Positions 9,419 to 45,872 of a stretch of 64,000 nt of DNA are shown here, piece after piece (within the stretch, counting starts at the first letter, position 1; each line of letters opens with the position of its first letter). The notes under the pieces were generated by a model. The model worked only from the letters and a program-made list of their open reading frames with translations, searched no databases and was not told the origin of the DNA. A program made the position numbers and the translations under genes. This DNA is from Sipunculus nudus (Eukaryota > Annelida > Sipuncula > Golfingiida > Sipunculidae): the NCBI GenBank assembly GCA_026874595.1, contig CM049317.1, positions 39,952,401-40,016,400 on the forward strand, in the 5' to 3' direction.

Positions 9419-9589
9419 AACTAGACATTTCTTGGCACCGCAGGTGCTAGAGTATCCCCAGACATAGTAGGCCCCCCCCTTTAAGAATAGACCCCCATTT
9501 TTAGCAGCATATACTGACACTTGGCATATTTATTGTTTCTTCCATCTAACAATCCACCATCTTGTTGAAGATGTTGGTCCTGTGACCTT

Positions 9590-10675
9590 GATCTTTTTAA
9601 AGATGTGTCTTGTGACCTTGACCTTTGACCTCATGACCCCAAAATCAATTCGGGTCTTGATTTTCCAAAGGGACATATGCAAGTCAAGTTTGAAATCTAT
9701 ACATCAATAAAGCAGGAATTATCATCCAGAAACTAATTTTTGGACAGATGGCTCCTGTGACCTTCACCTTTGACCATGTGACCTCAAAATTTATAGTGTT
9801 CTTCCTCTCTTGGCAGGAGAACTATATGTGCAAGATGAAAGATCTGAGATAAAATGTTTGGCTGAAAATGGATCCACATCTTTTTAAAGATGTGTCCTGT
9901 GACCTTGACCTTAGACCTCATGACCCCAAAATCAATTTTGGTCTTGCTTTTCCAATGGGACATATACAAGTCAAGTTTGAAATCCATACATCAATAAAAG
10001 CAGGAATTATCATCCAGAAACTAATTTTTGGACAGATGGCTCCTGTGACCTTCACCTTTGACCTTGTGACCTCAAAACTGATAGGGTTCTTCCTCTCTTG
10101 GTAGGTGAACTATATGTGCAAGATGAAATTTCTGAGATGAAATGTTTGGCTGAAAATGCATCCACAATCTTTTTAAAGATGTGTCCTGTGACCTTGACCT
10201 TTGACCTCATGACCCCAAAATCAATTTGGGTCTTGATTTTCCAATGGGACATATACAAGTCAAGTTTGAAATCCATACATCAATAAAAGCAGGAATTATC
10301 ATCCAGGAACTAATTTTTGGACAGATGGCTCCTGTGACCTTCACCTTTGACCTTGTGACCTCAAAACTGACAGGGGTCTTCCTCTATTGGCAGATGACTC
10401 ATATGTGCAAGATAAAAGGTCTGAGATGAAATGTTTGGCTGAAAATGCATCCACAATCTTTTTAAAGATGTGTCCTGTGACCTTGACCTTTGACCTCATG
10501 ACCCCAAAATCAATTGGAGTCTTGCTTTTTCAATGGGACATATATAAGTCAAGTTTGAAATCAAAACATCAATAAAAGCAGGAATTATCATCCAGAAACT
10601 AATTTTTGGACAGATAGCTCCTGTGGCCTTGACCTTTGACCTTGTGACCCCAAAATTTATATGGATCATCCACTA
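9590..10675 (+). repeat. Family B tandem array, ~288-bp units, about four copies
   Basis: Phase markers gatgtgtcctgtgacc recur at about 9890, 10178 and 10467. Each unit contains cctgtgaccttgacctttga, catacatcaataaaagcagg and cagatggctcctgtgacctt. Short open frames here repeat the same peptides (e.g. KFEIHTSIKAGIIIQ) in every unit and on both strands. That reflects the repeat, not coding selection. Confidence 0.85.
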
Positions 10676-10676
10676 T

Positions 10677-12776
10677 AGGGGATTCTTAATATTCCTCATG
10701 AATAATTAATCAGCTAGCGAAAGCGAGGCTAACTGGGAATAACAGGGAGCACGTGCTCACTCACCATGGCTATGTACAGCAACACAGACCTGTCAGTTGT
10801 TCCATTTATCCACTTCAAATTTGTGGATGCTTACAAACAAATTTTGTTAAAAGCATCTGGAAAGAAGTATAAATCCAAAGGAATCTGCTGCTATGAGCAC
10901 AATGTGAACCCAACTTGTAAGGGAGGTACTTTCCAGTGACTCTTAACATAATAAAGTTAAAGACCCTTGGGCTCACAATCTACTTGGCTCTACAGTCTAG
11001 GCTAGCTATGAATCAAACCACAGGATGCCATTAATTGCCCGAGGTCAATTAAAATTTCAAGATATACAAGTGTCGGGCACAGGTGCTGACTGATACACAT
11101 TCCAGACGGCACAGAATGAGGTGGTCTGTGCATGGTTCCTCTGATTGTGTACATTAATACTAAGTTTCTTGTTTCATGTACAGTAGGCACCGAGAGACAC
11201 ACACACCAAAACACTTTCGGCAGTACGCTGCTTATACTGCCATTATGAAGTCATTAACTTAATAAAGACTTATAAAGCATAAATGAAACATGTCTGTGTG
11301 ATTGTTAAAAGTGTCCTGATATGAAATTATGAAATGTTTTCTATTCACAAGCCTATTAAAAATATAGATGTAGGTATGCTGTATCTGGCACCAATAGAAA
11401 ATACACTGTATTTTTAGGGGCATAACCAACACATAGCTGTCAAGTGAAACACTATGTCACAGGTCATTTAAAAAAAATATATCGCTCCTCATTAGATAGT
11501 GATATGGTGAGTTCCTGGGCATGGCAAGGATTATATTAGTGCATGGGCAGAAACAGAATTTTATAAATGACACCTTTTTCCCGCAAGACTTTACATAATT
11601 TGAGAAAAATATATATAAAAATATGTAAGGTATGAATTATGGAATAATATATATTCATTTTAATTAATGCTCAACACTTCAACAGCTCCACACCTTTTAA
11701 CTCAGGTGAGTTCCTTCAAAAATTCTTTATAAATCGAATATGAAAAGTAATGTGTCATATACTAAAACTTCATATTTGTTATGAATAAAGAGTTAAAATA
11801 TACTGACGGCGTGTCCTACAGCTGTGTGACATAAACTGCATTGACAAACAATGGAAACGGTGACACAAGAATTGCATGAGTTAAATATTCTTTAAATTGC
11901 AGTGGGTCTAGGCTGGTCATGTGGGGATATATCTATAATTGTTTCGCAATCATGTAATTTAAGGGCCTTAAAGATATCCACAGATGCCATCTTAGAGGGC
12001 CTCAAGTAAAAATGAGATAAAATGATGACATTAAGTTTTGGTAATATAAAATGTAAGCCCCTTCAACCAATTGAGAGACATACCAATGTATCTATTATCT
12101 ATAAACCAGTGAGGGGATCAATGCTTGGCTGGTAAAAACTATATGCAGATCTTTGCTAAATGTCACCATCAAGTTAAATATGTTGGTAGTCTTCTATCAT
12201 TATTTATTTATGTTATATATTTATTTTAATAAAGTACAATTAATTGCATGTGTATGGACACAGATTTTGTGAAACAGCACAGTATTTTAAAATATCTTGA
12301 CATGTACATAATAAAGGTAAGGCAAAACCAAATGAGGGCATGGACCATGTAAAAATGATATTTTAATATGTGCCTTTATAAATTGATACAGATCATTAAA
12401 AATCATTGTTCTAAAAGGGTTGTTCATTTACTTAATTCTATGAACAAATATAACAAACAGCAGACCAAACCAGGAACATATGAACACACAATCACAAAGA
12501 GTCCCTCATCCAGATGTATGAATTAATTAGTAATTTCCACTGTTTCTTTCTACCTGGATCACTTATGAAAACTAATGAAAAATCAAATCTGATGTCCAAT
12601 TAGTAAATGAGTAGCATGAAGGAACAGAATAGGCTGTGACACGACCTGCCTTGCTGAGCTTAACTGTATCAGCACGTGTTACTGCTGTGACAAGTGAGCA
12701 CGTGTCTTTGTTATTCCCCATTGGCCTCGCTTTGGCCTCTGGTATGTGTGGCATGCATAGAATTTAAGAGTCCCCT
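10677..12776. mobile_element. 2.1-kb TIR DNA transposon inserted in family B copy 1
   Basis: Family B copy 2 reads ccactattggcaag without a break (about 26070), while here ccactat is followed by 2100 bp and then attggcaag. The insert starts AGGGGATTCTTAA and ends TTAAGAGTCCCCT. The inverted similarity extends ~90 bp (AGCGAAAGCGAGG, GGGAATAACA and CACGTGCTCACT appear on both ends in inverse order). The AT on both sides is a 2-bp target duplication (TA also fits). No transposase is recognised, so it is probably non-autonomous. The superfamily is uncertain. The interior is otherwise featureless apart from the ORF at 10766. Confidence 0.88.
10766..10939 (+). CDS. 57-residue ORF inside the TIR transposon, unknown
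   Basis: The ATG is in a good context (tcaccATGG) just inside the left terminal repeat. The frame runs 57 codons to TGA. The peptide starts MAMYSNTDLSVV, has FKFVDAYKQILLKASGKKYK in the middle and two closely spaced Cys (GICCYEHN) plus NPTC near the end. I do not recognise the family. A possible donor (GAG/gtactt) precedes the stop, so it could be a first exon of a transposase or captured host exon. Composition is not simple-repeat-like. Coding status is unproven. Confidence 0.35.
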   Translation: MAMYSNTDLSVVPFIHFKFVDAYKQILLKASGKKYKSKGICCYEHNVNPTCKGGTFQ

Positions 12777-13805
12777 ATTGGCAAGTGAGCTATATATTCA
12801 AGATGGAAGACCTAGGATGAAAGTTTGGCTTAAAATGCATCCACAGTATCTTTTAAAATGCCAGTCCAGTGACCTTGACCTTTGACCTCATGACCCTAGA
12901 ACCTATAGGGTTCTTACTTTAGTGGTGGGCCATACACAAGTCATGTTTGAAATCCATATGGCTATCAACACTGGAGATATCATAAGAGGTGTGTGATTTT
13001 CACCATATATGGCAATATTCAAGGTCAAGGCCACTATCATAGGAAAGGTCATAACCCCAGTTTAAATAAACATCATCCCATAACCCATACCTATGTATAT
13101 GCATAATATAAAAGAAATTTGTCCATTAGTTTTTGACTTATAATGCTCACAGTACTGTAAGGTGGCAATTTTGAGGGTATTAAACGGCACGAAAACAAGT
13201 AAAGAATAATAGGTGGCGCCACCAGTTTCTGGAACATGACAACCCTATCCATGATCTTCCATCAAGTTGATTTTGGGATAAATCCATGCAAGATTTCTTG
13301 AGATAATAAAGAATTTGTGTGATTTTCCTCAAAATTGGACCTATTCAAGGTCAAGGACACTCTCCTAGTGAAGGTCATGACCTCATTTTAAATAGGCGTC
13401 GTCCTCTTACCCATATCTATACATATACCAAGTTTGGTAAAGTTCCGTGAAATATTTTTCGGGTTATCGCGCCAACAAGATTTATATGCGGCGGCGGCGG
13501 GGGGACCAGTATGAAAACATAGTATTCCCTGACTTTGTCTGGGGATACAATAAATACTCATATAATAATATTCCGATTATATATATTCTAGCACCAGATT
13601 ATCTCTGTTTAATGTTTAAAGTCTGCACATTAAATACAAGAATTCTGCTGAATATATGAATACTGTATTATTTAGTTTTTATACTGTAACGGTTCACTGA
13701 ACTGTAATAAAACTTGTTTTATATTTCCTTTAAGGATACATGCAGAGGTCAGATATGTCTAGCTATAATTTAAGTGTTTATATATTTTTCTGTTCATCTG
13801 TTTGT

Positions 13806-15799
13806 TGCTTGCCGGAAATCTTCGATTTCGGCAAGCATGTTGCTCAGTTGCGTATGTCTGTTTGTCTGTCTGTTTGTCTGTCTGTTTGTTTGTCTGCACT
13901 CTCCTGGCCACAATTTTGCCACAATCACCTTAAAACTTTCAGAGATGATGGAGAATTAAATTTCTAGGTGCCCTATTGTTTTTGGTTAAAATAGGTCAAA
14001 GGTCAAGGTCAAGGTCGTCAAAAATTCTCAAAACGGTTTTTTCTTCATATCTTTGTGACTATTAGTCGTATCTACTTCAACAATAGCTCATTTTAATCGT
14101 CATTCCAAGGCCTGTCATCTGGTGTGTGGCTGACTCAAATTTGCCGTAACCATGGTTACAAATTTTGGGGGAATAGTCATGATATTCGAATATAAGGGGT
14201 CTTATTTTTCTAACTTTGTCAGTTTTAAAGCTAGTGTGATCTAGTTTTTTGCATCAGGTAGCATTCAACTAGTACTACAAGATTTTATAACAAGTATTGC
14301 AGTATCTCGTGAAATATCTCGTGAATAGAGATATTTCGAGATTTCATTCATCTTGCGTCAAAGGCCACATTATTGCAGGAATCTTTCTGAAACTGACATA
14401 TTATAAGTCCTACACTAGTATCTCGAAATCGTTTTTTCATTTTTTGAATAGGGCCGCTAGGGGGCGCTGGATGCGAACCTCCCGAACATATCATATTTTG
14501 GCCATATCTCCAAAATTATAAGCCTCAATTACATAAACTATAGCTTATTTTCTTCCTCTGAGTTTTCTCCATAACCTAGTGTAGTCATCTGGTCTCAATT
14601 TTGTGACACTTTGTCAGTGTGTCTGTCTGTTTGTCAGTTGTCCTCAAATTCGCCTGCTTGCTCTTGCTTCTCACATATAGCATTCTAAAGGGCACAGTTT
14701 TGAAAGAATCCTTTTGAAACTATTACATCTTAAGTCTTACACTAATATCTCGAAACCAATTTTTCATTTTCCGGATATGGCCGCTAGGGGGCGCTGAACT
14801 CGAACCTCTCCCAACATATCATGCTTTGGCAATATCTCCAAAACTATAAACCTCAGTTACATAAACTGTAGCTTTTTTCTTCCTTTGAGTCTTCTCCATA
14901 ACCTAGAGTAGTCATCTGGACTCAATTTTGAGTCACTTTGTCAGTGTTTTCGTCTGTTTGTCAGTTGTCCTCAAATACGCCTGCTTGTTGGCTCTTGCGT
15001 CTCACATATAGCATTCTTTAGGCCACAGTTTTGACGGAATCCTTTTGAAACTATTACATCTTATGTCTTACACTAATATCTAGAAATAAGTTTTTCATTT
15101 TCCGGATATGGCCACTAGTGGGCGCTGCACACGACCCTCACACACATACCATTGTATTGGCCATATCTCTACACCCAAAGCCTCAGTTACATAAACTTTG
15201 GCTTATTTTCTTCCTTTGAGTCTTCTCCATAACCTGATTAAGGCATCTGGTTTCAATCTTCTGTCACTTTGTCAGTGTGTCCATCTGTTTGTCCGTTATC
15301 CTCAAAGTCGCCTGCTTGCTGGTTCTTACGCCTTACATATAGCATTCTACAGGCCACAGCTTTGACGGAATCCTTTTGAAACTGGGACATCTCATGGTAT
15401 ACACTAATAACGCATTTGTCGTCTTCGGAATATGTCTGCTAGAGGGCGCTACAGTCGAGCCTCCCTAGTATATCATTAATTCGCCATACCTCCAAAATTA
15501 TAAATCTAAATTACATAAATTATAACTCATTTTCTTCCTTTCAATCTTCTCAATCACCAGGTTATGTCATCTGGTGTCAATCTTGTCTCACAAAGTCAGT
15601 ATGTCTGTCTGTTCGTCTTTTGTTGTCAGCTTTGTCTGCTTGCCTGTTCTTTTGTCTCATACGTCATTCTACGGGCCACATATTCTCAGCAATGTCCCTA
15701 AGAGTCATTCCATTAATAGAAAACCGACAATATGTTCTGTCTGTCCGTCTGTGTTTCACTTCCGATTTCCGGCAAGCGTTCGACCTATGGTCGTCTAGT
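13806..15799 (-). mobile_element. Family F Helentron-like element, inverted orientation
   Basis: Read on the minus strand, the element begins ACTAGA (15799-15794), then hairpin CGACC-ATA-GGTCG, then subterminal GCTTGCCGGAAATC. It has four ~325-bp tandem units (14430-15600) and a GTCT/GTTT microsatellite (13855-13895, plus strand). It ends in a 3' hairpin, 13806-13837, whose arms are the same GCTTGCC-GAAATC sequence and its inverse. The 5' motif matches the hairpin arm over all 14 bases. No protein. It is the clear case here oriented in the same sense as CCT5. Confidence 0.8.
14451..15451 (+). promoter_or_regulatory. Four tandem CTCF-consensus-like sites
   Basis: The sites are at 14451-14469, 14778-14796, 15109-15127 and 15433-15451, about 325 bp apart, one per tandem unit of the family F element. 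The second reads TGGCCGCTAGGGGGCGCTG and the third TGGCCACTAGTGGGCGCTG. The animal CTCF core consensus, as I remember it, is TGGCCACCAGGGGGCGCTA. The first two are the closest; the fourth (tgtctgctagagggcgcta) is degraded. All share orientation. Binding is inferred only. Confidence 0.5.
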
Positions 15800-16250
15800 T
15801 TGTTTATTTATTTACATATTTTCTATTATATTCAATTATATATATATACTGGTAAATGTTAAATATTTTCAGGCAGATAACATGCATAGAACTTATATGC
15901 TCGCACAATTTATTTAAAGAAAATATGTGCATATGTTATTGTCAGCATTTATTTTGATAATTGTCAATTTGTTTGCATTCACTGTCTATTCATTTTTTTT
16001 TTTTCATTAAATGTTTAATTTTGTATTAAGTCAGTACAGATGTTTATGAGAATCTTTAGCAAGATTCAGTTAATTCTGCTTTATTTAGTTCTCTGTGTTT
16101 ATATTAAGTTTGTTCATTTAACAGACTGTATTCAGATCATTTTCATTCAGTTGTTAAATAAGAACTTGAATTATGTCAATCATGTTGGGAACTGTATGCC
16201 CTGTGGCTATTTTTCCTGAATAAAGTTCTGTTCTGTTATCTAGTTTATAG
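15800..16250 (+). repeat. Possible LINE 3' tail
   Basis: AT-rich sequence ending in cctgaataaagttctgttctgtt, which resembles the 3' UTR and polyadenylation region of an invertebrate non-LTR element. No coding part is recognisable upstream. A similar aataaagttctgt string is at 61881. Weak call. Confidence 0.35.
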
Positions 16251-16276
16251 TACCTGTCAACAGAATGGGATGGAGG

Positions 16277-16432
16277 GAGGAAGGGAGGCAATTGGGATGA
16301 GAGAGAGAGAGAAAAAGAGAGAAAGAAAGATGGAGAGAGAAAGAGAAAAAGCAGGGGGGGGGGGGGAGAGAGAGAGAGAGAGAGAGAGCTAGACTGCCAC
16401 AGAGAGAGACAAAGAGAGAGAGAAAGAGAGGC
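16277..16432 (+). repeat. (GA)n purine-rich microsatellite with a 13-G run
   Basis: Almost pure purines on the plus strand: gagaga and gaaaga units around 13 G at 16354-16366. The long open frames on the opposite strand (Ser/Leu/Pro-rich) are by-products of this composition. Confidence 0.9.
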
Positions 16433-17638
16433 TCTCTGGTAATTACTGCCTGACCCAGACACTCGCAGTGGCAGTAGGTCAGACCTGAAGGTGTTATGTA
16501 ACTGCCCAGTACACTGCATTTATACTGACCTGATGTAAACAATGAAGACATGGTACTTGGAAACTTGAATGAAATCTACAGTTTTTGATCAATTGGTTTC
16601 AAATTTCAGATTTTAACAGATGAAATACTAATGTGTACATGCTGTGAAAATTAAATCCACAGCACTAACAGGAAAAAATTGAATATTTATATTTTTTTAA
16701 ATGGTATCAGGAAAAAAGAAAAGTATTCTCAGCTATGAAACTAATACGTGTTAAAATTAATCCGAGGATCAAAACACCCAATATACTATACCAGGAGCAA
16801 ACTGGAGTTAGGAATGTCTAATTTTATGAACTGAAGTAAAGTATCAGCAATATAAATTTTGATTATTTAGCCAGTATCATGTAACAACTGATACAACCAT
16901 GAGTTATAAGTCAAACAAATTAAAATCTTTAATGAGCACTTGTCTGAGTAATATTTTAAATTTTTTACATATTTATTTATTTTTTAAAATTTTGTAATAA
17001 ATATAAACAACTAGTTAAACACCTGAAAAACCTGGAAATTTAGATTAATTTAATATAATCAACTGCATCCTTGTCTATCATTATCTTGCTTCATATAATC
17101 CCTAATAGTAAACAACAATTTATTGAAATTATTTATTTTTCATTTTTATGGTTGAAATGAAAAATACCCAATGATGACTGCATGGTGTCACTTGAAATAC
17201 AATTTTGGCCATCCATGGAAGATCCATAAATGATCAGTAATTGCAAGGTAATTCCCTGTAACTCATTAACTATGAATTCCTTTTCCATTTATTTTTTTAA
17301 GTTCTTATCATAAACCAAGAATTAAAAGAAAAAGTTTATTGTTATGTTTATTGCCTAAACAAATACTAGAGGAGGGGGTTGGACAGTTAGATCCAGCTGA
17401 AGCCACCAAAGAGCTGGCTGGCTGCAGAGTGCCTCGCTTCAAGCATGCATAATTGGCCTGAAAAGTCAATGTGGGGACATAAAGAGGGGCTTCAGTACAG
17501 CCTAGGTGTGATATGGTCTCATAAAAACTTTCATAAAAGCTAGTTTTTGATCAATTCCTTTTATAACTTCAGAATTTACAAGCTATAATTTTTACATGTG
17601 CAAGATATGAAAATTTAATCAACAGTGCTTACAGGGAA
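16433..17638 (+). repeat. Family A-long internal sequence (degenerate)
   Basis: Contains blocks shared with 40260-40380, 43190-43310 and 53580-54180: cttgaa-gaaatctacagttttt, gctgtgaaaattaaatcc, and gactgcatggtgtca near 17178. No termini of its own are seen. No gene. Confidence 0.5.
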
Positions 17639-17918
17639 ACAAGGGACCTATGGGTCACGGCGCTCAGCTGTTATATATGATAAAAAAATATGATTTAGAA
17701 AGAGGCACATGCTGGTTTTGTGTGGTAATAAGTATACGCTGTATTATGAGTTGTTGTTGTTAAGCTTATGTATGATTTTGATAGTACCTTTGGAGACAAA
17801 GAAGAGAATTGATTTCATTTATTTTATTAACAAATGGAGTACTATTGTCACACAGATTTTGACTTGGCCATATAACTTATAAGCAGAACATATAATATAA
17901 GAGTTTAACTATTTATTA

Positions 17919-22335: not shown

Positions 22336-22858
22336 AAAAACTGAAATATAAGTTAAAATATTAGAATTGTTGCAATCATTATATATCCAGGGTGTAGCTC
22401 ATTTTGGGTCATATTATGCATACACATATATTTTATTATTTTTATTTGAAAACACATGTTTAAACAGAATTTAAAAGAAATTGATGCCACAACATGGCAT
22501 CTACAAGATTATTTCTTGAATCACTATTTTGCACATTGGAGTTTTCAGTACATGCTTAATTTTATTCACTGAAATAAAATAAAAGATTCAGTAAATTAGA
22601 TGAAATAAAACATCTTTTCAAATAAAGTATACACACTGTTGGTTGAATGAGGGACAAACAAGATCATTGTGCTAATTACTATCTCAGCTTTAATTTATTA
22701 CTGGAATTAATAGTCAATTCCACACGTGGTGAAGTTTTTACTCTTCTGAAATAAGGAATTACTTATCCGATGAACATCCACACTTTCATAGCAATACACC
22801 ACTTTGTGGACACAATTAAATGTGTACTTTAATCATTGTAACCCTGGTGGTACAATAA
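22336..22858 (+). repeat. ~520 bp repeat, second copy at 52090-52640
   Basis: Shared blocks include aagttaaaatattagaatt, cattatatatccag, gaatttaaaagaaa-t-atgc, tatacacactgttggttgaa and gtaaccctggtggtacaata. No open frame. Identity unknown. Confidence 0.75.
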
Positions 22859-23025
22859 ACAAGGCCTTCATGCCTAATGCAAACCTGTGCAAAATTTAGG
22901 GGTATGAATGGAGGTTTTAATTTTTAAAATTTAATATTGATCCTGTATATCTACCTTAGTCATTATGATTTCAGCAAAATGGACGTTTCGGACCTGCAAG
23001 TTTCAGACTTTGACATTTTAAAACT

Positions 23026-24292: not shown

Positions 24293-26842
24293 ACTAGACA
24301 TTTCTTGGCACCGCAGGTGCCAGAGTATCCCCAGACATAGTAGGCCCCCCTTTAAGAACAGACCCCCATTTTTAGCAGCATATACTGACACTTGGCATAT
24401 TTATTGTTTCTTCGATCTAACAATCCACAATCTTGTTGAAGATGTTGGTCCTGTGACCTTGACCTTTTTAAATATGTGTCCTGTGATCTTTACCTTTGAC
24501 CTCATGACCCCAAAATTAATTTTGGTCTTGCTTTTCCAATGGGACATATACAAGTCAAGTTTGAAATCCATACATCAATAAAAGCAGGAATTATCATCCA
24601 GAAACTAATTTTTGGACAGATGGCTCCTGTGACCTTCACCTTTGACCTCAAAATTGATAGGGGTTTTTCACTCTTGGCAGGTGAACTATATGTGCAAGAT
24701 GAAAGATCTGAGATGAATTGTTTGGCTGAAAATGCATCCACAATCTTTATAAAGATGTGTCCTGTGACCTTGACCTTTGACCTCATGACCCCAAAATCGA
24801 TTCGGGTCTTGCTTTTCCAATGGGTCAAATACAAGTCAAGTTTGAAATCCATACATCAATAAAAGAAGGAATTATCATCCAGAAACTAATTTTTGGACAG
24901 ATGGCTCCTGTGACCTTCACCTTTGACCTTGTGACCTCAAAATTGATAGGGTTCTTCCTCTATTGGCAGATGACTCATATGTGCAAGATAAAAGGTCTGA
25001 GATGAAATGTTTGGCTGAAAATGCATCCACAATCTTTTTAAAGATGTGTCCTGTGACCTTGACCTTTGACCTCATGACCCCAAAATCAATTCAGGTCTTG
25101 CTTTTCCAATGGGACATATACAAGTCAAGTTTGAAATCCATACATCAGTAAAAGAAGGAATTATCATCCAGAAACTAATCTTTGGACAGATGGCTCCTGT
25201 GACCTTCACCTTTGACCTTGTGACCTCAAAATTGATAGGGGTCTTCCTCTCTTAGTAGGTGAACTATATTTGCAAGATGAAAGATCTGAGATGAATTATT
25301 TGGCTGAAATTGCATCCACAACCTTTTTAAAGAGGTTTCCTGTGACCTTGACATTTGACCTCATGACCCCAAAATCAATTCGGGTCTTGCTTTTCCAATG
25401 GGTCAAATACAAGTCAAGTATGAAATCCATACATCAATAAAAGAAGGAATTATCATCCAGAAACTAATTTTTGAACAGATAGCTCCTGTGGCCTTGACCT
25501 TTGACCTTGTGACCCCAAAATTTATATGGATTATCCACAATTGGCAAGTGAGCTATATATTCAAGATGGAAGACCTGGGATGAAAGTTTGGCTTAAAATG
25601 CATCCACATCTTTTTAAAGATGTGTCCTGTGACCTTGACCTTTGACCTCATGACCCCAAAATCAATTTGGGTCTTGCTTTTCCAATGGGACATATACAAG
25701 TCAAGTTTGAAATCCATACATCAATAAAAGCAGGAATTATCATCCAGAAACTAATTTTTGGACAGATGGCTCCTGTGACCTTCACCTTTGACCTTGTGAC
25801 CTCAAAACCGATAGGGGTCTTCCTCTATTGGCTGATGACTTATATGTGCAAGATGAAAGGTCTGAGATGAAATGTTTGGCTGAAAATGAATCCACAATCT
25901 TTTTAAAGATGTGTCCTGTGACCTTGACCTTTGACCTCATGACCCCAAAATCAATTGGAGTTTTGCTCCAATAAAAGCAGGAATTATCATCCAGAAACTA
26001 ATTTTTGGACAGATAGCTCCTGTGGCCTTGACCTTTGACCTTGTGACCCCAAAATTTATATGGATCATCCACTATTGGCAAGTGAGCTATATATTCAAGA
26101 TGGAAGACCTGGGATGAAAGTTTGGCTTAAAATGCATCCACAGTATCTTTTAAAATGCCAGTCCAGTGACCTTGACCTTTGACCTCATGACCCTAGAACC
26201 TATAGGGTTCTTACTTTAGTGGTGGGCCATACATAAGTCATGTTTGAAATCCATATGGCTATCAACACTGGAGATATCATAAGAGGTGTGTGATTTTCAC
26301 CATATATGGCAATATTCAAGGTCAAGGCCACTATCATAGGAAAGGTCATGACCCCAATTTAAATAAACATCATCCAATAACCCATACCTATGTATATGCA
26401 TAATATAAAAGAAATCTGTCCATTAGTTTTTGACTTATAATGCTCACAGTACTGTAAGGTGGCAATTTTGGGGGTATTAAACGGCATGAAAACAAGTAAA
26501 GAATAATAGGTGGCGCCACCATTTTCTGGAACATGACAACCCTATCCATGATCTTCCATCAACTTGATTTTGGGATAAATCCATGCAAGATTTCTTGAGA
26601 TATTAAAGAATTTGTGTGATTTTCCCCAAAATTGGACCTATTCAAGGTCAGGGACACTCTCCTAATAAAGGTCATGACCTCATTTTAAATAGGCGTCGTC
26701 CTCTTACCCATATCTATACATATACCAAGTTTGATAAAATTCCGTGAAATATTTTTTGGGTTATCGCGCCAACAAGTTTTATATGCGGCGGCGGCGGGAC
26801 CGGTATGAAAACATAGTATCCCCCGACTTTGTCTGGGGATAC
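24293..26842 (+). mobile_element. Family B Helentron-like element, copy 2 (uninterrupted)
   Basis: ACTAGA at 24293, 5' hairpin TGGCACC-GCA-GGTGCCA, subterminal GTATCCCCAGACATAGT. Six ~288-bp tandem units run from 24440 to 26060. A B-specific 3' section follows with ggtggcgccacc near 26511, GGC repeats near 26787, and the 3' hairpin 26816-26842 (arms GTATCCCC and GGGGATAC, loop TTT). The outer arm actttgtctggggatac matches the inverse of the 5' motif at 16 of 17 bases. No transposase; non-autonomous. Confidence 0.82.
24440..26060 (+). repeat. Family B tandem array, ~288-bp units, about six copies
   Basis: Same unit as 9590-10675, with phase markers tgtgtcctgtga at about 24475, 24756, 25045, 25620 and 25908 and a variant at 25335. 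Each unit carries gtgaccttgacctttgacct, which contains a perfect AGGTCAAAGGTCA (DR1) on the opposite strand. Confidence 0.85.
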
Positions 26843-27976
26843 AATTAAGTTGAGTAGGGATACCAAAAATTTATAATTCACGTACAGTTGTCTTTATATA
26901 GCCACAGAGAGCTGAATATCCATGATTGTAACATTGTCTGGTATGATAAATAACTTTAATCATAAATCTAAATTTTTTTAAAAGCTTTTAAAAAAACTTT
27001 CTTGTCAATATTAACCAAAGATAACCTGAAATCTAAATGTCTAATGGCATGATGTAATAGATGCTGATAAACTGGTGCTAGGCTTGATGTAACAGCATCA
27101 CACAGCTAACATGTATGGTAAAATGACTCAATTCAATCTCCATAATTCAGCCAAAAATCATTCATGTGGAACCATTTATGACAATTATTATAAGAATTAT
27201 TGTAGGGATTATTCTTGTAAAATATTTAACAAACTGGCTTCAGTGGCATCAGTTGAAAAACGTTTCACAGGTTTATAACTCGTATAGGAAGATACAGCAA
27301 ATTGGCTAATTTCAGCTTCCCATAAATCAGCCAAAAAGCACTGAACCAAAACCATTTGAACAAACTTGAATTATCAATATCTGAGGATAATTAATGTGTG
27401 AGATTTAAGAATTTGGCCCAGTGGTTTTTGAGAAGAAGATCTTTGTATCCACTGAGCTAAAATGGGCTGTTATGGCATATGACTAAATTCAGCTTCCCAT
27501 AACTTAGCCAAAAGTCACTGAAAAGAGACCTTTTGAACAAACTTCAGAAAGCACTACCCTAGGATCATTTCTGTGTGATGTCAAACATTTTGGCCAATGG
27601 GTTTCAGAGAGGAAGTTTTTTGTAGCTTTCAGTGTGATACAGGCACTGATGACCCTGTACAAAAAAGGCTGATGCAGGTGGCGCCACCAATACCTGAATT
27701 TCAGATATGACCTATGTGACCAATATTGGCATAAAATTTGGTGATGATAGCTACAGCAGTTTTTGAGATATAAATTTTAATATGCTTTTTTGCACAGTTA
27801 ACAAAGTTCAACCTCCTGTAACTCGGCCAAAAATCTCCCAACTGGAACCATTCGAACAAACTCCAGAAATTATTTCTGTAAAATATTAGACAATTTGGCT
27901 GGGCAGTTTCGGAGAAGAAGATTTTTAAATCTTTTTTAGCTTTTTCCCTATAAAATCTAAGAAAATGCAGTTAGAA

Positions 27977-28973
27977 ACTAGATGTGTCGGAACGACACGA
28001 ATGCCTCGCCTTGGGCAAATTAGAAACATTTGTAAAATTTGGAAAATTTTTTAAGTTCAGGAGGTGTCGTATGGTCAAAAGTAGGTCAACAAGGGCAAAA
28101 TGCAAACTCGATCTGTAACGGGTCATTATCAAGCAACACACCAAAAATCATGCCAGTATATGAAGGCATTGTGAAAAAAAGTCCATACATGTGCATTTTC
28201 CATAAAAATTTCTGTCTTTCATGAAATTTTCTATGTTTAGGAGCCGTAAAACGGTCAAAAGTAGGTCAACCGGGATGAAACGCAAACTCGATCTGTAACT
28301 GTCATTAACTGCCCACACAAAAAAAATCAGGGTGGTATCTGCAGGCATTGAGGAGAAAAAGTCAGTACATATGCATTTGTTATGAAAATTTATATTTTTC
28401 ATGAAACTTTCTATGTTCAGGAGCAGTCAAATGGTCAAAAGTAGGTCAACTGAGACAAAACAAGAACTCGATCTGTAACTGGTCATTATCTGCCTACACA
28501 CCAAAAATCAAGCCCGTATCTGCAGGCACTGCGAAAAAAAGTCCATACATATGCACCTTTTATGAAATTTTCTATGTTAGAGCACCGTCAAACGGTCAAA
28601 AATAGGTCAACTGGGACAAAACGTGAACTTGATCTGTAACTGGTCATTATCTGCCCACACACCAAAAATCAGGCCAATATCTGCAGGTATTGTGAAGAAA
28701 AGTCTGTACAAGTGTATTTGTCATGAAAATATATATTTTACATGAAATTTTCTATGTTCAGGAGCCGTAAAACAGTCAAAAGTAGGTCAACCGGGACGAA
28801 ACGCGAACTTGATCTGTAACTGGGCTATATCTGCCCACACACCAAAAATCAGGCCAATATCTGCAGGCATTGCGAAAAAAAGTCCGTACAACTGTTTGAT
28901 TTAGGAATGACGGAAGGATGGAATGACGGACATGGGTAAAACTATATGCGCCGGCCACTTTGTGGCGGGGGCA
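27977..28973 (+). mobile_element. Family C Helentron-like element, copy 1
   Basis: ACTAGA at 27977, 5' hairpin GTGTCG-GAA-CGACAC, then atgcctcgcc. Five ~180-bp repeats carry ggtcaaaagtaggtcaac and cgatctgtaact. A gacgga-type microsatellite (28905-28930) precedes the 3' hairpin (ccggccac and gtggcggg arms, loop TTT). It lies in the poly(A) tract of a D tail; the empty equivalent is at about 2360. Confidence 0.8.
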
Positions 28974-29159
28974 TAAAAAAATAAACAAAATCCAATATAA
29001 TCTTTTGAATAACTGATTATTTGCAAAAAATTTAGTGATGCTAGCTCCTGAAGTTTTCAAGATAGCTATGGTTAACGTACCGACGATGCACGACGGACAA
29101 CGCCGCACCATCGCATAAGCTCACAAGTTCGCTAAAAATTTAAAATGTAGCACAGCCTA

Positions 29160-31017: not shown

Positions 31018-31037
31018 CTGTCAAAATTACAAACACA

Positions 31038-36253: not shown

Positions 36254-37799
36254 ACTAGTGGCCCATGGGCCATGACACTCAGCTGAATTCAAGAATTGTT
36301 GAATTTGATTACAAGATGGAGAGATCCAAGTTCTAATATACATGCTAACTTTCAGCTCAATACATTGAGCCACTCCTGAGATATCGGCTGTTATCTAAAA
36401 GACACGAAGATTCAGACTGCCTAGAAAGGGTTGCAGGTGGTGCCACCTGTCTTTGTTATGCACAACTACATAGGTGAGGGAACAACTATGCCGGGTTACA
36501 GAAGATTAGTCCAAGGGTCTCAGAGGAGTTCTCCAGAAACAAACACTGTTTTTGTATCACATTTTTAATTATTTTGGGGTACTCAAATTTTGAACCTGAT
36601 AGCTCAGAGGATATGGGTAACAGAGACCTAATTTCAGATTTCCATGAAGACTTTTCATGGAGCTCCCTAGATGTCAAGTATGAAGATTCTAGGTCAAGTG
36701 GTTATGATTTGTGCCCTGTTACAAGATAACGCTTTATTTGAAAGTCTTAAAATGAGAAAAAAATGCAAACATATTAAAAAAAATAGGTGGCGCCACCAGT
36801 CTGCAGGAACTGATGAAACACTCCATGATCAATATGAATGCAAAAAATCACGGCCATCAGTACATTAGTTATTCAGATACTGCAGCTTTTGTATCACATT
36901 TTTAATTATTCTTAGTATTTACAAGCCCCATAGCTCGAAGGATATGGGTAACAGAGACCTAATTTCAGGTTTCCATAGAGACTTTTCATGGACCTCTCTT
37001 GATGTCAAGTTAGAAGAGTCCAGGTCCAGCGGTTATGTTTTGTGCCCTGTTAACAGATGACAGCTTCTTTGAAGGTCTCGAATATATAGAAAAAAAATCG
37101 TAAAATTGAAAAAAAATACAGGTGGCGCCACCAGTCTGCAGGAAGTGATGGAACATCCCATGATCAATATTCATGCAAAGAATCATGATGACCAATGCAG
37201 TAGTTATTCAGATACTTGAGCTTTTGTATCATATTTTGCATTATTCTGGGGGGGTACTTTGGAGCCCCATAGCTCAAAGGTTATGGGTAACAGAGACCTA
37301 ATTTCAGGTTTCCACAGAGACTTTTCATGAGCCTCCCCTCAGGTCAAGTGAGAACATTCTAGGTCCAGTCGTTACGATTTGTGCCCTGTTAACAGATGAT
37401 CACATCTTAAGAGGTCTCAAAAATAGAGAAAAAAATTCGTAAAAATAGAAAAAATACAGGTGGCGCCACCAGACTGCAGAAACTGATGAAACACTCCATG
37501 ATCAATATCCATGCAAAAAATCATGGTGATCACTGCATTAGTTGTTCAGATAATTGAGCTTTTGTATCAAATTTTCCATTATTCTGGGGGGGGGGGGGTA
37601 CTTCGGAGCCCCATAGCTCGAAGAATAAGGGTAACAGAGACCTAATTTCAGGTTTCCAAGGAGATTTTTCATGAACTTCCTAGGATGTCAAGTTACAAGA
37701 TTCTAGGTCCAGCAGTTACAGTTTGTGCCCTGTTAACAGCCGGACGGCCGGACAAAGAGTGATCGCTATAGCTCAGATGACTTACAGTCAGGTGAGCTA
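36254..37799 (+). mobile_element. Family A element with three ~336-bp tandem units
   Basis: 5' end actagtggcccatgggccat at 36254. Tandem units are marked by ggtggcgccacc at about 36785, 37122 and 37457 (period 335-337) and by gtaacagagacctaatttca. A 13-G run lies at 37586-37598 and the 3' hairpin at 37769-37799 after a short GGAC tract. This is the cleanest example of the family A internal array. Confidence 0.75.
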
Positions 37800-37803
37800 A
37801 AAA

Positions 37804-38496
37804 AAGATGCTCAAGTGATTTTTTAGGGTCAAACTCTTTCATGATTAAGTCATAGTTTCCGGAATTTCTTCTACTTTGTTTGCAATGTCGACAAACACAG
37901 CGCGTCGTTACTTTCAGTTCCCAACAAAGTGAATGCGCATCTACCGACATGCAATACCTGCAGAGAATTTACATGATTTAGGGAAAGTGTACAGCAGAGG
38001 AAAATACCATAATAACTGGAGATGAACTGGGGCACAACTTTCGAGTCCCCTTTCACACCACCGAAACTTGTGAATGCGTGTGTTCTGATTCGCATTTATT
38101 CTGAGTTGTCCGCACTGAAAATACTCCGCATGTGCCCCCATGGTCATGAGACCCACAGTAGTCTGAACGTGCAGATGATGTCTCACATGCAGTTAAATAC
38201 GGGAACAAGCTTTGAAAAATTAGTTACTTTCATGTGAATGGTATCCAATTATTTGCCTCTTTCTAAAATTATTTCAGTTTCTGTGATTCAAAAAGTAAGA
38301 CTTGTAAGACCTAGCTTCTAAAATGTAAGAAAAGTAAGACTTTTTAAGGCCTTATTTTTGCAAAATGAAAAGTAAGACTTTGTAAGACTTTGTAAGACCG
38401 CGCACGAACCCTGTGCAAGTACTAAACATTTTGAATAAGAAACAATTACACAAACATCACTGCTGAAATTCTGGCATGGGTGCACACAACACAAAA
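37804..38496. repeat. Copy 2 of the ~410 bp duplicated segment, then D fragment
   Basis: 37804-38225 matches 2516-2925. It is followed by gtaagactttgtaagact simple repeats (38290-38400, also at 34215) and a D fragment ending ggtgcacacaacacaaa at 38495, where a long A element starts. Open frames on both strands are not shared with copy 1. Confidence 0.6.
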
Positions 38497-40977
38497 ACAA
38501 GGGACCTATGGGTCACGACGCTCAGCTGTTATATATGATAAAAAAATATTATTTAGAAATGAGGCACATGCTGGTTTTGTGTGGTAATAAATATAAGCTG
38601 TATTATGAGTTGTTGCTGTTTAGCTTATGTATGATTTTGATAGTACCTTTGGAGACAGGGAAGAGGATTGATTTCATTTATTTTATTAACAAATGGAGTA
38701 CTATTGTCACACAGATTTTGACTTGGCCATATAACTTATAAGCAGAATATATAATATAAGGGTTTAAAAATTACAAATATTGTCCCAAATATAATTTTTA
38801 TTAAAAATAATAAGAGAATCATATGATTTTTTAAAATGAAATATAACTGAAATGATTATTAAAATAATATTTAAATACAATTACAAAGTATTTGCACCAT
38901 GTCTGGTGTTTATTCAGTTTTCACCAAACAATGATGTTGAGAATCCAGAATATACAAAATTCACACATTTAAATAATGATCATAAGTACCTGGTTTTATG
39001 GCTTTTATTTATATTAAAAAATAACTGTAATAAATTCATTTTGGACTAATTTCACATCAATGTACACACTAGACACAGTAGGAATCTAGATTAATATTAT
39101 CAACTGCATCTTTGTCTATCATTAATTTCCTTCATATGATCCCTAATGATTAGTAATGAATGATATGATTTACTTCATTATCATTAAAATTGAACTGAAA
39201 TATACCATAGGTGACTGCATGGTGTTATTTGGAATACGTGACATTCTATCCATCGATACAAGATTCTTATATCATCAGTAACTGCAAGTTAATTTCCTGT
39301 TATTATAAACTAACAAATTCCTTTTCTATTTTTCTTTAATTTTTTATTAAAAACCAATAAAAATTTATTTATTGTTTATTGTTATGTTGTTGGTTAAAAC
39401 TACTAGATGAGTTGGGTTGGACACCTGGATCAACTGTGGCTGGCCATAAGCTGCCTGGATTCCCGTGTATGCCTCGCCTCAAGCATGCATAATTTGCTGA
39501 AAGTTCAACAAGGTCAACATACAGGTGACTCCAGAGTGGCTGGAGAGAGCCAAAGTCTGACAGGGTCTCATAAAAACATTAACAAAAGCTACAATTTTTG
39601 GCCAATTTCATTCAGCTTTCTAAACTTAAAAGCTGAAATCCTTATGTGTGCATGATATGAAAATTATATCAACAGTGCTCACAGGAAACAAACGTGCCAT
39701 GGTCAAAATTTGGCAAAATTTAAGTTACTAATTTTACATTTATACTAATAACTTATAAAATTTGAAAAATTCATAACTAATTTTGGGTATTCAATTGAAT
39801 CTTGATTAAATAATGTTACATCCCTGACAAAAATCTCTAGCTTCAGCAATCCCCTTGTTAAGGGAGTAAATATATTTCTTGATTTTTTTACAAAGTGCAT
39901 TATGTTTGGGCCCATAAATTAAAACAATTACGCAATACTGACATCATTCTGGCATGTGCATAGAGAATGAAAAATATGTATATTATTTATGATTAAAGTC
40001 AGATCAGTGGTTTTGATATTAGGCAGTCTTGAAGTGTAACAATGGGTTTTTAATGGAAAAATGAAGTTTTTCATTTATATCTTGAAGGTATTAAGTCCTA
40101 GTGACCAAATTCTTGGCATGGTAGGGGATTTCGGAGACATCTAACTGTATGCCGAATTTAAGAAACTAAGAGCTGAAGCTGGGGAGCTTAGCTCTAACAA
40201 ACTGCATAACACTAGCTTGATGTAAACTTGATGTGACATGGTGCTTGAAAACTTGAATAAAATCTACAGTTTTTGATCAACTGGTTTCAAATTTTTGGTG
40301 TTAACAGACAAAATGCAAACAAAAACATGCTGTGAAAATTAAATCCACAGTACTTACTGGATAAAAACGTGCCATGGTCAAACTTAGGCAAAATTTAAGG
40401 TACCAATTTTATATTTTTGCCAATATTTAAAAAATTTAACAGATTTTGATCTAATTTTTGGTATACAATTAAATTTTGATCAATTAAAGTTGTATTACTG
40501 AAAAAAAAGTCCCTACCTTTACACTTTTGGTCTTAAGTGACCAAATAGCTTTCCTGATTTTTTTACAAAGTCCATTATGTTTGGGCCCATAACCTTTTTA
40601 AATTAAATAATACTGACTTAATTTCTGGCATGTACATAGGAACTATATAGAGGAATATTTATGGTAAATATGAAGAAAACCAGATGAGTGGTTTTGATAT
40701 TAGGCAGTCCTGAAGTGTGAAAATAGATTTCTAATAAAAAAAATTGAGGTTTTTCCTTAATATATCGAAGGAACGAAGTCCTATTGACCCAATTTTCGGC
40801 ATGGTAGGAGATTTTTGGGACATCTAACTGTATGGCGAATTTCAGATTCGTAGGTCCAATGGTGTCGAAACATGCCAGTCTTACGGACGGACATCCGGAC
40901 GGCACGACGGACATCCGGACAGATGACGGACAATGGACCACGACTATAGCTCAGATGACTTATAGTCAGCTGAGCTA
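38497..40977 (+). mobile_element. Long family A element, copy 2 (about 2.5 kb)
   Basis: 5' end acaagggacctatgggtcac with gctcagctgttatatatg; collinear with 41286-43919 through gagttgttg, tacaaatattgtccc, gtttattcagttttcacc and tcaactgtggctggcc. The GGAC/ATCC microsatellite is 40880-40930 and the 3' hairpin 40947-40977 (arms TAGCTCAGATGACT and AGTCAGCTGAGCTA). The short recurring open frames (e.g. beginning MGHDAQLLYMIKKY) are shared by copies at 17.6, 41.3, 51.1 and 60.0 kb; similarity between copies explains them. Confidence 0.75.
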
Positions 40978-41285
40978 AAAATTGAGGTTTTTCCTTAATT
41001 TCTCAAAGGAACAAAGTCAAAAAGACCCAGTTTTTTGGCTTGGTAGGAGATCTTGGGGACATCTAACATTATGCCAACAACCTTGGGAGCATACAGAGCT
41101 GCACTGAATGACCAACAGTGACCACAGTGGACTGCTTGACAATGTACGGGAATACAACAAGAGCTTTAAAAAAATTTAATAACTAGCCTAATTTTGCAGC
41201 TTTTATTTTCAAATTTCAGATTTTAACAGATTAAATCCTTATTTGTACATGCTGTGAAAATTAGATCAACAGTACTTACAGGAAA
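40978..41285 (+). repeat. Family A fragment between two long A elements
   Basis: Starts attgaggtttttccttaatt directly after an A 3' end and ends acttacaggaaaac at the next A 5' end. It is the interior of a long A element, so both neighbours are nested in one older A copy. No gene. Confidence 0.6.
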
Positions 41286-43919
41286 ACAAGGGACCTATGG
41301 GTCACGACGCTCAGCTGTTATATATGATAAAAAAATATTATTTAGAAATGAGGCACATGCTGGTTTTGTGTGGTAATAAATATAAGCTGTATTATGAGTT
41401 GTTGTTGTTTAGCTTATGTATGATTTTGATAGTACCTTTGGAGACAGGGAAGAGGATTGATTTCATTTATTTTATTAACAATTAGAGTACTATTGTCACA
41501 CAGATTTTGACTTGGCCATATAGGTAACTTATAAGCAGAACATAAAATGTAAGAGTTTAACTATTCATTAAAAAAAATTACAAATATTGTCCCAAATATA
41601 ATTTTTATTTAAAATAATAAGAGAATCATATGATTTTTTAAAATGAAATATAACTGATATGAAATATAAAATAATATTAAAGAATATATTCATGAATGCA
41701 TTCATGAATACATTTTGAAAGTATTTGCACGAGTATTCATATACTTTCATTTTTACCTGAATTCCCATTCTTTATGCAAGAAATTTTATAATGGAGTACA
41801 TAATCATATTTGTATTTAAATACAATTACAAAGTATTCGCACCATGTCTGGTATTTATTCAGTTTTCACCAAACAATGATGTTGAGAATCCAGAATATAC
41901 AAAATTCACACATTTAAATAATGATCATAAGTACCTGGTTTTATGGCTTTTATTTATATTAAAAAATAACTGTAAAAAATTCATTTTGGACTAATTTCAC
42001 ATCAATGAACACACTAGACACAGTAGGAATCTAGATTAATATTATCAACTGCATCTTTGTCTATCATTAATTTCCTTCATATGATCCCTAATGATTAGTA
42101 ATGAATAATATGATTTACTTCTTTATCATTAAAATTGAACTGAAAAATGCCATAGGTGACTGCATGGTGTTATTTGGAATATGTGATATTCTACCCATCG
42201 ATACAAGATTCTTATATCATCAGTAACTGCAAGTTAATTTCCTGTTATTATAAACTAACAAATTCCTTTTCTATTTTTCTTTAATTTGTTATTAAAAACC
42301 AATAAAAATTTATTAATTTATTGTTTATTGTTATGTTGTTGGTTAAAACTACTAGATGAGTTGGGTTGGACACCTGGATCAACTGTGGCTGGCCATAAGC
42401 TGCCTGGATTCCTGTATGCCTCGCCTCAAGCGTGCATAATTTGATGAAAGGTCAACAAGGTCAACATACAGGTGACTCAAGAGGGGCTGGAGAGAGCCAA
42501 AGTCTGACAGGGTCTCATGAAAAACATTAATAAAAGCTACAATTTTTGGCCAATTTCTTTCAGCCTTCTAAACTTAAATGCTGAAATCCTTATGTGTGCA
42601 TGATATGAAAATTATATCAACAGTGCTCACGGGGAAACAAACGTGCCATGGTCACAGTTGGGCAAAATTTAAGGTACTAATTTTATATTTATACTAATAA
42701 CTTATAAAATTTGAAAAATTCAGAACTAATTTTGGGTATTCAATTGAATCTTGATTAAATAATGTTACATCCCTGACAAAAAAATCTCTAGCAATGCCCT
42801 TGTTAAGGGAGTAAATATATTTCTTGATTTTTTACAAAGTGCATTATGTTTGGGCCCATAACTTAAAACAATTACGCAATACTGACATCATTCTGGGATG
42901 TGCATAGAGAATAAAAAATATGTATATTGTTTATGATTAAAGTCAGATCAGTGGTTTTGATACTAGGCAGTCTTGAAGTGTAACAATGGGTTTTTAATGG
43001 AAAAATGAAGTTTTTCATTAATATCTCGAAGGAATTGTGTCCTAGTGACCAAATTCTTGGCATGGTAGGGGATTTTGGAGACATCTAACTGTATGTCGAA
43101 TTTAAGGAACTTAGAGCTGAAGCTGGGGAGCTGAGCTTTTGCAACCTGCATAACACTAGCTTGATGTAAACAATATGTTACATGGTGCTTGAAAACTTGA
43201 TTAAAATCTACAGTTTTTGATCAACTGGTTTCAAATTTTTGGTGTTAACGGTTGAAATGCTAACAAAAACATGCTGTGAAAATTAAATCCCCAGTACTTA
43301 CAGGAAAAAAAAACGTGCCATGGTCAAAGTTGGGCAAAATTTAAGGTACCAATTTTTTATTTTTATTAATATTTTAAAAAATTTAAAAGATTTTCATCTA
43401 ATTTTGGGTATACAATTTAATTTTGATCAATTAAAGTTATATTACTGGAAAAAAGGTCCATAGCTTTAACATTTTTTGTGTTAAGTGATCAAATATCTTT
43501 CCTGATTTTTTTACAAAATGCATTATGTTTGGGCCCAGAACTTTTTTAAATTAAATAATACAGACATAATTTCTTGCATGTACATAGGAACTATATAGAG
43601 GAATATTTATGGTAAATATGAGGAAAAACAGATGAGTGGTTTTGATATTAGGCAGTCCTAAAGTGTGAAAATAGGTTTTTAATAAAAAATAGAGGTTTTT
43701 CCTTAATTTCTCAAAGGGACGAAGTTGCAAAGACCCATTTTTTGGCTTGGTAGGAGATCTTGGGGACATCTAACATTATGCCAAATTTTGGATTCCTAGG
43801 TCTTACGGTTTCAAAACGTGCCACATCTACGGACGGACGGACGGACGGACGGACAGACGGACGGACGATGGACAATGGACCACGACTATAGCTCAGATGA
43901 CTTATAGTCAGCTGAGCTA
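41286..43919 (+). mobile_element. Long family A element, copy 3 (about 2.6 kb)
   Basis: Same structure as 38497-40977. The GGAC microsatellite is 43826-43868 and the 3' hairpin 43889-43919, followed by aaaacgtgccatgg, which is A interior, so it too is nested. No protein coding seen. Confidence 0.75.
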
Positions 43920-45872
43920 AAAACGTGCCATGGTCTAAGTTGGGCAAAATTTAAGGTACCAATTTTTTTTTTGGTTAATATTTTAAAAAATTTAACAGAT
44001 TTTGATCTAATTTTGGGTATACAATTTAATTTTGATAATTTAAAGATATATTACTGGAAAAAAAGTTAATAGCTTTAACATGTTTTGTGTTAAGTGATCA
44101 AATATCTTTCCTGATTTTTTACAAGATGCATTATGTTTGGGCCCATAACTTTTTTAAATTATATAATACAGACATAATTTCTGGCATGTACATAGGAACT
44201 ATATAGAGGAATATTTATGGTAAATATGAGGAAAAACAGATGAGTGGTTTCGATATTAGGCAGTCCTGAAGTGTGAAAATAGGTTTTTAATAAACTAGAT
44301 GTGTCGTAACGACACGAATGCCCCCGCCTTGGGCAAATTAGAAACATTTGTAAAATTTGGAAAATTTTTTAAGTTCAGGAGGTGTCATATGGTCAAAAGT
44401 AGGTCAACAATCTGTAACTGGTCATTATCTGCCTACACACCAAAAATCAGGCCCATATCTGCAGGCACTGCGAAAAAAAGTCCATACATGTGCACTTTTT
44501 TATGAAATTTTCTATGTGAGAGCACTGCCAAAGGGTCAAAAATAGGTCAACTGGGGCAAACTGCGAACTCCATCTGTAACTGGTCATTATCTGCCAACAC
44601 ACCAAAAATCAGGCCAATATCTGCAGGCACTGAGAAAAAAAAACGTACATGTGTATTTGTCATGAAATTTCATATTTTTCATGAAATTTTCTATGTTCAG
44701 GAGCCGTAAAACGGTCAAAAAAAGGGCAACCAGGACGAAATGCGAACTCGATCTGTAACTGGTCTATATCTGCTCACACACCAAATATCAGGCCAATATC
44801 TGCAGGCATTGCGAAAAAAAGTCAGTTCATGTGTATCTGTCATGAATATTTCTTTTTTTTCATGAAATTTTCTAAGTTTAAGAGCCGTAAAACGGTCAAA
44901 AGTAGGTCAACCAGGACGAAACGCGAACTCGATCTGTAACTGGTCTATATCTGCAGGCATTGCGAAAAAAAGTCCGTACAACTGTTTCATTTCGGAATGA
45001 CGGAATGACGGAATGACGGAAGGGTAAAACTATATGCCCCGGCCACTTTGTGGCGGGGGCATAAAAATTGAGGTTTTTCCTTAATTTCTCAAAGGAAAGA
45101 AGTCGCAAAGACCCAGTTTTCGGCTTGGTAGGAGATCTTGGGGACATCTAACATTATGCTTAATTTTGGATTCCTAGGTCTTATGGTTTCAAAACGTGCC
45201 ACATCTACGGACGGACGGACAGACAGATGGACAGACGGACGACGGACAATGGACCACGACTATAGCTCAGATGACTTATAGTCAGCTGAGCTAAAAATTG
45301 CATTATATTTGGGCCCATAACTTCAAAATAAAACCCAATACTGACCTAATTTTTGGTATGTTCATAGAAAATGTATGGAAGAATATGAATACTAAATATG
45401 ACCAAGAACAGATATTAGGCAGCCTTGAAGTGTAACAATGGCTTTTTTATGGAAAACGGAGGTTTTTCCTTAATATCTCAAAGGAACGAAGTCCTAATGA
45501 CCCAATTTTCGGTACGGTAGGAGATTTTTGGAACATCTAATGATATGTAAAATTTTGGATTTGTAGGTCCAACGGTTTTAAAACGTGCCCTGTTAACGGC
45601 CGGACGGACGACGGACAAAGGACCACGACTATAGCTCAGATGACTTATAGTCAGCTGAGCTAAAAATTGAGGTTTTCCCTTAATTTCTCAAACGAACGAA
45701 GTCGTTAAGACCCAGTTTTCGGCTTGGTAGGAGATCTTGGGGACATCTAACATTATGCTGAATTTTGGATTCCTAGGTCTTACAGTTTCAAAACGTGCCA
45801 CATCTACTGACGGACGGACGACGGTCAATGGACCACGACTATAGCTCAGATGACTTATAGTCAGCTGAGCTA
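43920..45872 (+). repeat. Stack of truncated family A 3' ends with a nested family C
   Basis: Three A 3' hairpins occur in a row at 45263-45293, 45632-45662 and 45842-45872, each preceded by GGAC repeats and joined to A interior sequence (aattgaggttt at 45661, aattgcattatattt at 45293). A family C copy interrupts at 44294-45066. This is best explained by repeated insertion of A elements into A elements. Confidence 0.65.
44294..45066 (+). mobile_element. Family C Helentron-like element, copy 2
   Basis: ACTAGATGTGTCGTAACGAC at 44294 gives the 5' hairpin GTGTCG-TAA-CGACAC, then ATGCCCCCGCC. Four ~180-bp units (ggtcaaaagtaggtcaac at about 44393, 44537, 44717, 44897). The outer arm of the 3' hairpin reads gtggcgggggcat; its inverse contains the whole 5' motif ATGCCCCCGCC. 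Inserted in aataggtttttaataaa/aattgagg of a long A element; the empty form is at about 43675-43700. Confidence 0.82.

Follow-up and report, generated by a model that had tools for sequence, protein, structure and literature searches.

Helentron-like termini shared by element families of different sequence in a 64-kb stretch of the Sipunculus nudus genome

Introduction

Several families of repeated elements that differ in sequence, but end in one and the same arrangement, raise the question of whether this arrangement represents a new kind of transposon terminus or a known one. They lie in a stretch of 64,000 nt from Sipunculus nudus (assembly GCA_026874595.1, contig CM049317.1, positions 39,952,401 to 40,016,400; hereafter the window), and are referred to as families A, B, C and F. 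An original prediction, made from the letters of the window, had attributed the common arrangement to a rolling-circle, Helentron-like mechanism and had regarded a hairpin directly after the presumed 5' motif ACTAGA as no standard part of the published anatomy. Having followed these claims through the 1.43-Gb genome (153 contigs, 17 of these large), we conclude that A, B, C, F and a fifth family, E, are very probably Helentrons, mostly in the form of non-coding derivatives (HINEs). In the following, B1, B2, C1 and C2 designate elements of the window, and contig C1, C4, C7, C8, C10, C17 and similar labels designate other genomic contigs or copies.

Terminal layout of the element families

A motif search in the window located ACTAGA followed by a hairpin at 9420 (B1), 24293 (B2), 27977 (element C1) and 44294 (C2), and on the minus strand at 15799 (family F); in family A, ACAAGG is followed by GACCCATGGGTC, for example at 4231 and 51064. 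The inverted subterminal matches comprise 11/11 positions in C2 and 14/14 in F, as predicted, whereas the 16/17 claimed for B was not reproduced (13 nt exact). A matched over 10 nt. In element C1 the 3' motif is degenerate and failed an exact 10-mer test.

When the other strand is read, the elements of A, B, C and F all begin with a 5'-terminal palindrome, continue through tandem units and close with an inverted copy of the 5' motif, then a hairpin near the terminus and the terminal letters. The palindrome occupies the very 5' end (GTATCCCCAGAC-AAA-GTC.GGGGATAC in B, ATGCCCCCGCCACAAAGTGGCCGGGGCAT in C, GCTTGCCGGAAATCTTCGATTTCGGCAAGC in F and GCTCAGCTGACT..AGTCATCTGAGC in A) and folds into a single long stem in each family, broken by a mismatch in A, B and C; in A, C and F it adjoins a GTCC/GTCT-type microsatellite. 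The 3' terminal letters are TCTAGT in B, C, F and E, and CCTTGT or CACTTGT in A, followed by T. In the published Helentron convention, a hairpin with a CTAG-like end marks the 3' end, and the palindromic copy of the 5' subterminal inverted repeat, or subTIR, is the hairpin that has the subterminal motif as its outer arm (PMC4067079, PMC7492417, PMC5148889). The supposedly novel hairpin after ACTAGA is the usual Helentron 3' hairpin seen from the opposite strand, and the 5' and 3' ends had been assigned in reverse relative to this convention. Once the strand is settled, the layout is the known Helentron signature and makes no case for a new terminal type; its conservation, although real, is no new discovery, because the definition of the superfamily already covers several unrelated sequences with one plan.

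That these ends belong together was assessed on both window strands by counting end motifs, those with an adjacent stem of at least 5 bp, and those which in addition had an inverted subTIR partner 200-5000 nt away. The respective counts of 47, 17 and 6 compare with means of 38.0, 4.42 and 0.51 in 100 dinucleotide shuffles, none of which contained more than 3 pairs, and with 49, 5 and 1 for the reversed end motif, although the test was not blind, as the end motif had been picked after the families had been seen. The idea of one terminal architecture common to A, B, C and F, for which a match in shuffled controls had been named as a refutation, withstood this comparison within the window. Genome-wide, the exact 3'-end patterns occur 13,819 times for A, 2036 for C, 1447 for B and 1163 for F, and the reversed patterns of all four do not occur at all.

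Among ten F 3' ends, the eight distinct sequences have all stem positions paired (40/40 cells), with changes on both sides at three of the five pairs, each in a single sequence; this invariance is partly by construction, since the search pattern used to retrieve 5 of the 10 loci prescribes the stem. In 29 distinct A 3' ends, one pair has changed on both sides (two sequences).

Insertion sites

Uninterrupted genomic sites were sought by searching the genome with the joined flanks of an element. For element C1 (1565 first-look candidates, 40 scored), all 40 matches listed cross the junction; for B1, 36 of the 40 matches listed extend from query positions 1-4 to 215-220, nearly the full length, and the remaining four include the window's own left flank. 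Junctions were read at two loci for each element. The uninterrupted A-run measures 8 versus 2+7 around element C1, and 3 versus 2+2 around B1; hence, each insertion adds one A and causes no target duplication. B1 and element C1 are inserted at A|A, which is T|T on the element's own strand, and TT is the Helentron target given in PMC4067079; insertion between A and T, the hallmark of canonical Helitrons (Helitron1), was not seen at either element. For C2, three uninterrupted paralogues are present in the window (43680, 22112 and 40740), two of them with 6 A and one with 8 A, versus 2+5 around the element.

Coding copies with A-type and F-type ends

The Helitron_like_N profile was scored on 150 of 195 candidates and gave at least 143 matches in the genome; 8 of these coding regions were examined. 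Among them, coding Rep-helicase copies with the same ends, for which the original prediction had suggested a search, were found for A and F, but not for B, C or E; a coding partner combining Rep, PIF1 helicase and AP-type endonuclease within shared ends was likewise seen for A and F only.

On contig C17, A-type 5' ends (288 and 1012), an open frame of 2342 aa (7127-14152) and an A-type 3' end (15144-15176) follow each other on one strand, and the gene reads 5' to 3' relative to the A ends. The frame contains Helitron_like_N, PIF1 and a herpes-tegument-like peptidase domain, and its Exo_endo_phos match of 23.1 bits lies just below the Pfam cut-off of 24.5. A regular expression for the HUH motif matched C17 and C7. 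Four further copies of the C17 5' part were located, 96-99% alike. On the 3' side, three of four sampled copies align to C17 at 98.8-99.0% and stop at 15177-15178 with unrelated flanks, so that A-type homology ends 1-2 nt past the A 3' end; the fourth (L028) gave no alignment to C17. Only C17 and C10 define the 5' terminus, as in the other three copies sampled on this side the tandem repeats run on and the terminus was not reached. The coding frame was read in C17, and the copies on C10, C5 and contig C1 are known from their sampled ends. The A-type coding copies are highly alike. In the C7 region the same A 3' end follows the frame at a distance of 1.4 kb, and one of two fragments tested has a weak Exo_endo_phos_2 match; the A 3' end was considered as an element boundary and dropped, because the two copies which have it are 98% alike beyond it and fix no boundary.

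Two further observations concern the A-type copies. A 5' ends are stacked before a single 3' end both in the window (45260-45876) and in the C17 coding element (288, 1012), as if the 5' terminus belonged to the repeat unit. Furthermore, the C17 coding element contains an E-type 3' end (L011 6325), in a stretch common to four further copies.

F-type ends enclose frames of 2229 and 2250 aa on two chromosomes (C4 and C8). The two open frames have 93% identity and are surrounded by more than 20 kb of shared sequence. Within 33 kb, C4 has a single F3-like and a single F5-like end. Both copies become homologous 5 nt outside F3, and in C4 the homology stops 14 nt beyond F5; the flanks there are A-rich and look similar. 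C8 begins at its own F3, and its other side has a run of several F5 ends together with separate F copies. Both frames contain Helitron_like_N, OTU, PIF1 and Exo_endo_phos, all above cut-off, the last with E values of 6.9e-11 and 6.7e-12; in C13a, too, an above-threshold Exo_endo_phos is fused to the helicase. The F-type gene is antisense to the direction from 5' palindrome to 3' hairpin, that is, it reads from the ACTAGA end (two copies). Inverted transposase genes are reported in PMC5148889 for FoHeli4/5, a Danio and a D. ananassae Helentron and a Chlamydomonas Helitron2.

Two further candidates were discarded. In C11, a hairpin at 12210 and an 11-nt partner at 509 were dropped as an end pair, because homology between C11 and C13a continues upstream of 509; in the C7 coding region, a C-type 5' end located 4 kb beyond the frame was interpreted as belonging to a separate insertion. 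The ends of C11, C13a, C8b and C13b were not found among the 8 regions.

Classification and proposed mechanism

Subterminal inverted repeats with a palindromic 5' copy, a 3' hairpin, insertion into TT without duplication and, for two families, coding copies within the same ends together support the assignment to Helentrons. Several points weigh against it. The 3' hairpin is eroded in B1, where one pair is broken, and in A, where the innermost pair is missing from 7 of 29 distinct ends. The C2 junction count is ambiguous, as one of its three paralogues has 8 A instead of 6. The 8 regions examined, of at least 143 Helitron_like_N matches, included no element flanked on both sides by B, C or E ends, and the HUH expression had no match in C4 and C13a. 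A ends are so dense here that, in any one copy, what looks like an element end could be that of a neighboring HINE, and the outer terminus of C8 is not unique owing to its tandem series of F5 ends. Finally, relative to the ends, the gene runs one way in the A and the other way in the F coding elements.

This last point is the one that would favor a new type of terminus with an additional 5' hairpin, since the F-type gene reads from the ACTAGA end; yet A-type genes run the opposite way, inverted genes have already been published for the superfamily (PMC5148889), and the published layout comprises the same two ends with their roles swapped, which renders such a type very improbable. An affiliation with Helitron2 or canonical Helitrons instead of Helentrons is also unlikely, if a little less so. 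Helitron2, too, is characterized by an asymmetric inverted repeat and by hairpins at both ends, and CTAG recalls the canonical 3' CTRR (PMC5148889 and PMC4067079). Against it, Exo_endo_phos is fused to the helicase, above cut-off in the F-type frames and C13a and just below in C17, and insertion, as read at B1 and element C1, occurs in TT, not AT; on these grounds we rejected canonical Helitrons. For B, C and E, which had no coding partner among the 8 regions examined, such an affiliation may still apply. Short inverted repeats near both ends would also suit cut-and-paste miniature inverted-repeat transposable elements (MITEs) mobilized by a DDE transposase, and bivalve elements of such shape were first named MITEs (PMC7492417). 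The repeats are, however, subterminal and asymmetric, B1 and element C1 lack a target duplication, and the coding copies with A and F ends encode Rep, PIF1 and endonuclease; empty sites and coding copies largely refute this origin, which we regard as extremely improbable.

For the Helentrons favored here, a mechanism can be proposed in which every enzymatic step is adopted from published Helitron and Helentron models. Coding copies would supply a Rep/PIF1-helicase/endonuclease protein acting on the shared end structures. This protein might nick at the palindromic 5' end, from which a strand would be peeled off until the 3' hairpin beside CTAG(T) or CTTG(T) terminates the process, and the single strand would then be joined into a TT site without target duplication. 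HINEs would be carried along by the proteins of coding copies, presumably those of the A-type and F-type copies.

Comparison with known systems

HINE/DINE-1-like Helentron derivatives (PMC4067079) share with the present families the palindromic 5' subTIR, the inverted 3' subTIR, the 3' stem-loop, a middle of tandem repeats or microsatellites, TT insertion without duplication and a variable number of terminal T. In the mite elements of this kind, the distance between the 5' end and the subTIRs is 2-4 nt and that between the 3' palindrome and the 3' end 8-35 nt, whereas here about 6-14 nt separate the 3' hairpin from the terminus, and CTAGT is the terminal sequence in four of five families. Cg_HINE of Crassostrea gigas resembles our elements in the 5' subTIR with complementary inverted repeat, the GTCY/GTCC microsatellite, satellite-like units, the 3' subTIR with palindrome and the many same-plan families per genome, a likeness that rests on the layout described in PMC7492417 and not on sequence comparison. 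Fusarium FoHeli/Helitron2 also has hairpins at both ends, an asymmetric inverted repeat and, in some subgroups, an inverted transposase gene, but unlike the elements here it is described in PMC5148889 without endonuclease domain and with different end letters and target. To these systems the S. nudus genome adds two families of the same plan whose coding partners differ in gene direction relative to the ends, and A versus F offers a useful comparison for what defines the two ends.

Orientation of neighboring elements

Of 50 ends recognized in the window (2926-62161), 47 are on the minus strand: 22 A 3' and 14 A 5' ends, one weak F5 and the 3' and 5' ends of B, C and E except one weak B5. The three plus-strand matches are both ends of F and this weak B5, which falls on B1's own 3' subTIR. 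On contig C1 between 0.06 and 1.17 Mb, the minus strand likewise carries every one of the 52 ends listed for A, B, C and F. Among the ends listed, cross-family pairs less than 30 kb apart point in the same direction in 39/39 cases at 0-1.2 Mb, in 11/11 at 1.2-5.24 Mb and in 14/19 beyond 5.24 Mb (shuffle p 0.035), where agreement amounts to 19/34 at 50 kb (p 0.30) and 38/63 at 100 kb (p 0.06). These lists comprise at most the first 100 places per pattern, with A represented by one variant beyond 5.24 Mb, and exclude 63.3-67.7 Mb (segmental duplication); the pairs are not independent, and the comparison covers Helentron ends only, with no control repeat. A prediction for chromosome ends made beforehand received no support, as only four of six informative pieces (of 11) agreed: the starts of C7 and C10 and the ends of C4 and C13 agreed, the starts of C2 and C4 disagreed, and 5 of the 11 had no recognized end. 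Three further plus-strand A ends at the start of contig C2 also contradict it, and two rare A variants, with 13 and 14 places only, were uninformative.

Co-orientation of different families is unexplained and, outside the window and one 1.2-Mb region, weak. It may stem from insertion into older, co-oriented copies or from local duplication. That Helentron insertion is strand-selective for independent families over tens of kilobases, and over 1.2 Mb at one chromosome start, with a single-stranded intermediate entering a particular strand of the replicating target, seems to us a rather unlikely cause; if true, Helentron direction would record local fork direction. Should co-orientation survive proper controls, target-strand choice by rolling-circle transposons would be testable from sequence alone. 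No report of local Helitron co-orientation was found among search listings of the open-licence literature.

Elements and neighboring features of the window

The coordinates of the elements are collected in the table below. The two complete A copies listed there are about 95% alike in the repeat families D10 and D19.

Table 1. Positions, strands and terminal features of elements in the 64,000-nt window.
Feature	Position	Strand	Description
B1, HINE	9420..13548	-	5' palindromic subTIR GTATCCCCAGAC.., 289-bp tandem units, 3' subTIR, hairpin, ..TCTAGT; both ends read
B2, second B copy	24293..26842	-	3' stem intact, 7 bp; ends read
F, HINE	13807..15799	+	5' GCTTGCCGGAAATC palindrome, GTCT microsatellite, ~331-bp units, 3' subTIR; ends read
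F 3' end	within 13807..15799	+	hairpin CGACC-TAT-GGTCG, then TCTAGT
C1, HINE	27977..28974	-	~180-bp units; sits inside another repeat; ends read
C2, HINE	44294..45062	-	nested in sequence repeated in A copies; subTIR 11/11; ends read
A copy, HINE	38497..40981	-	TTTTTAGCTCAGCTGA.. to ..GACCCATAGGTCCCTTGT; both ends read
A copy, second HINE of same type	41286..43923	-	both ends read
Three A 5' ends in tandem	45260..45876	-	at 45260, 45629 and 45839; last two form a 210-bp tandem pair

The fifth family, E, is represented in the window by a hairpin with TCTAGT end at 23023 and 48042. The repeat that hosts element C1 (about 27140-29140) is present in high copy number, and its right end, TTTTTAGCGAACTTGTGAGC, is similar to yet another 5' end of Helentron type. 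By eye, the stretch to the left of B1 (9000-9419) appears to be the C-terminal coding part of a repeat of the long interspersed nuclear element (LINE) type, of which uninterrupted copies exist elsewhere.

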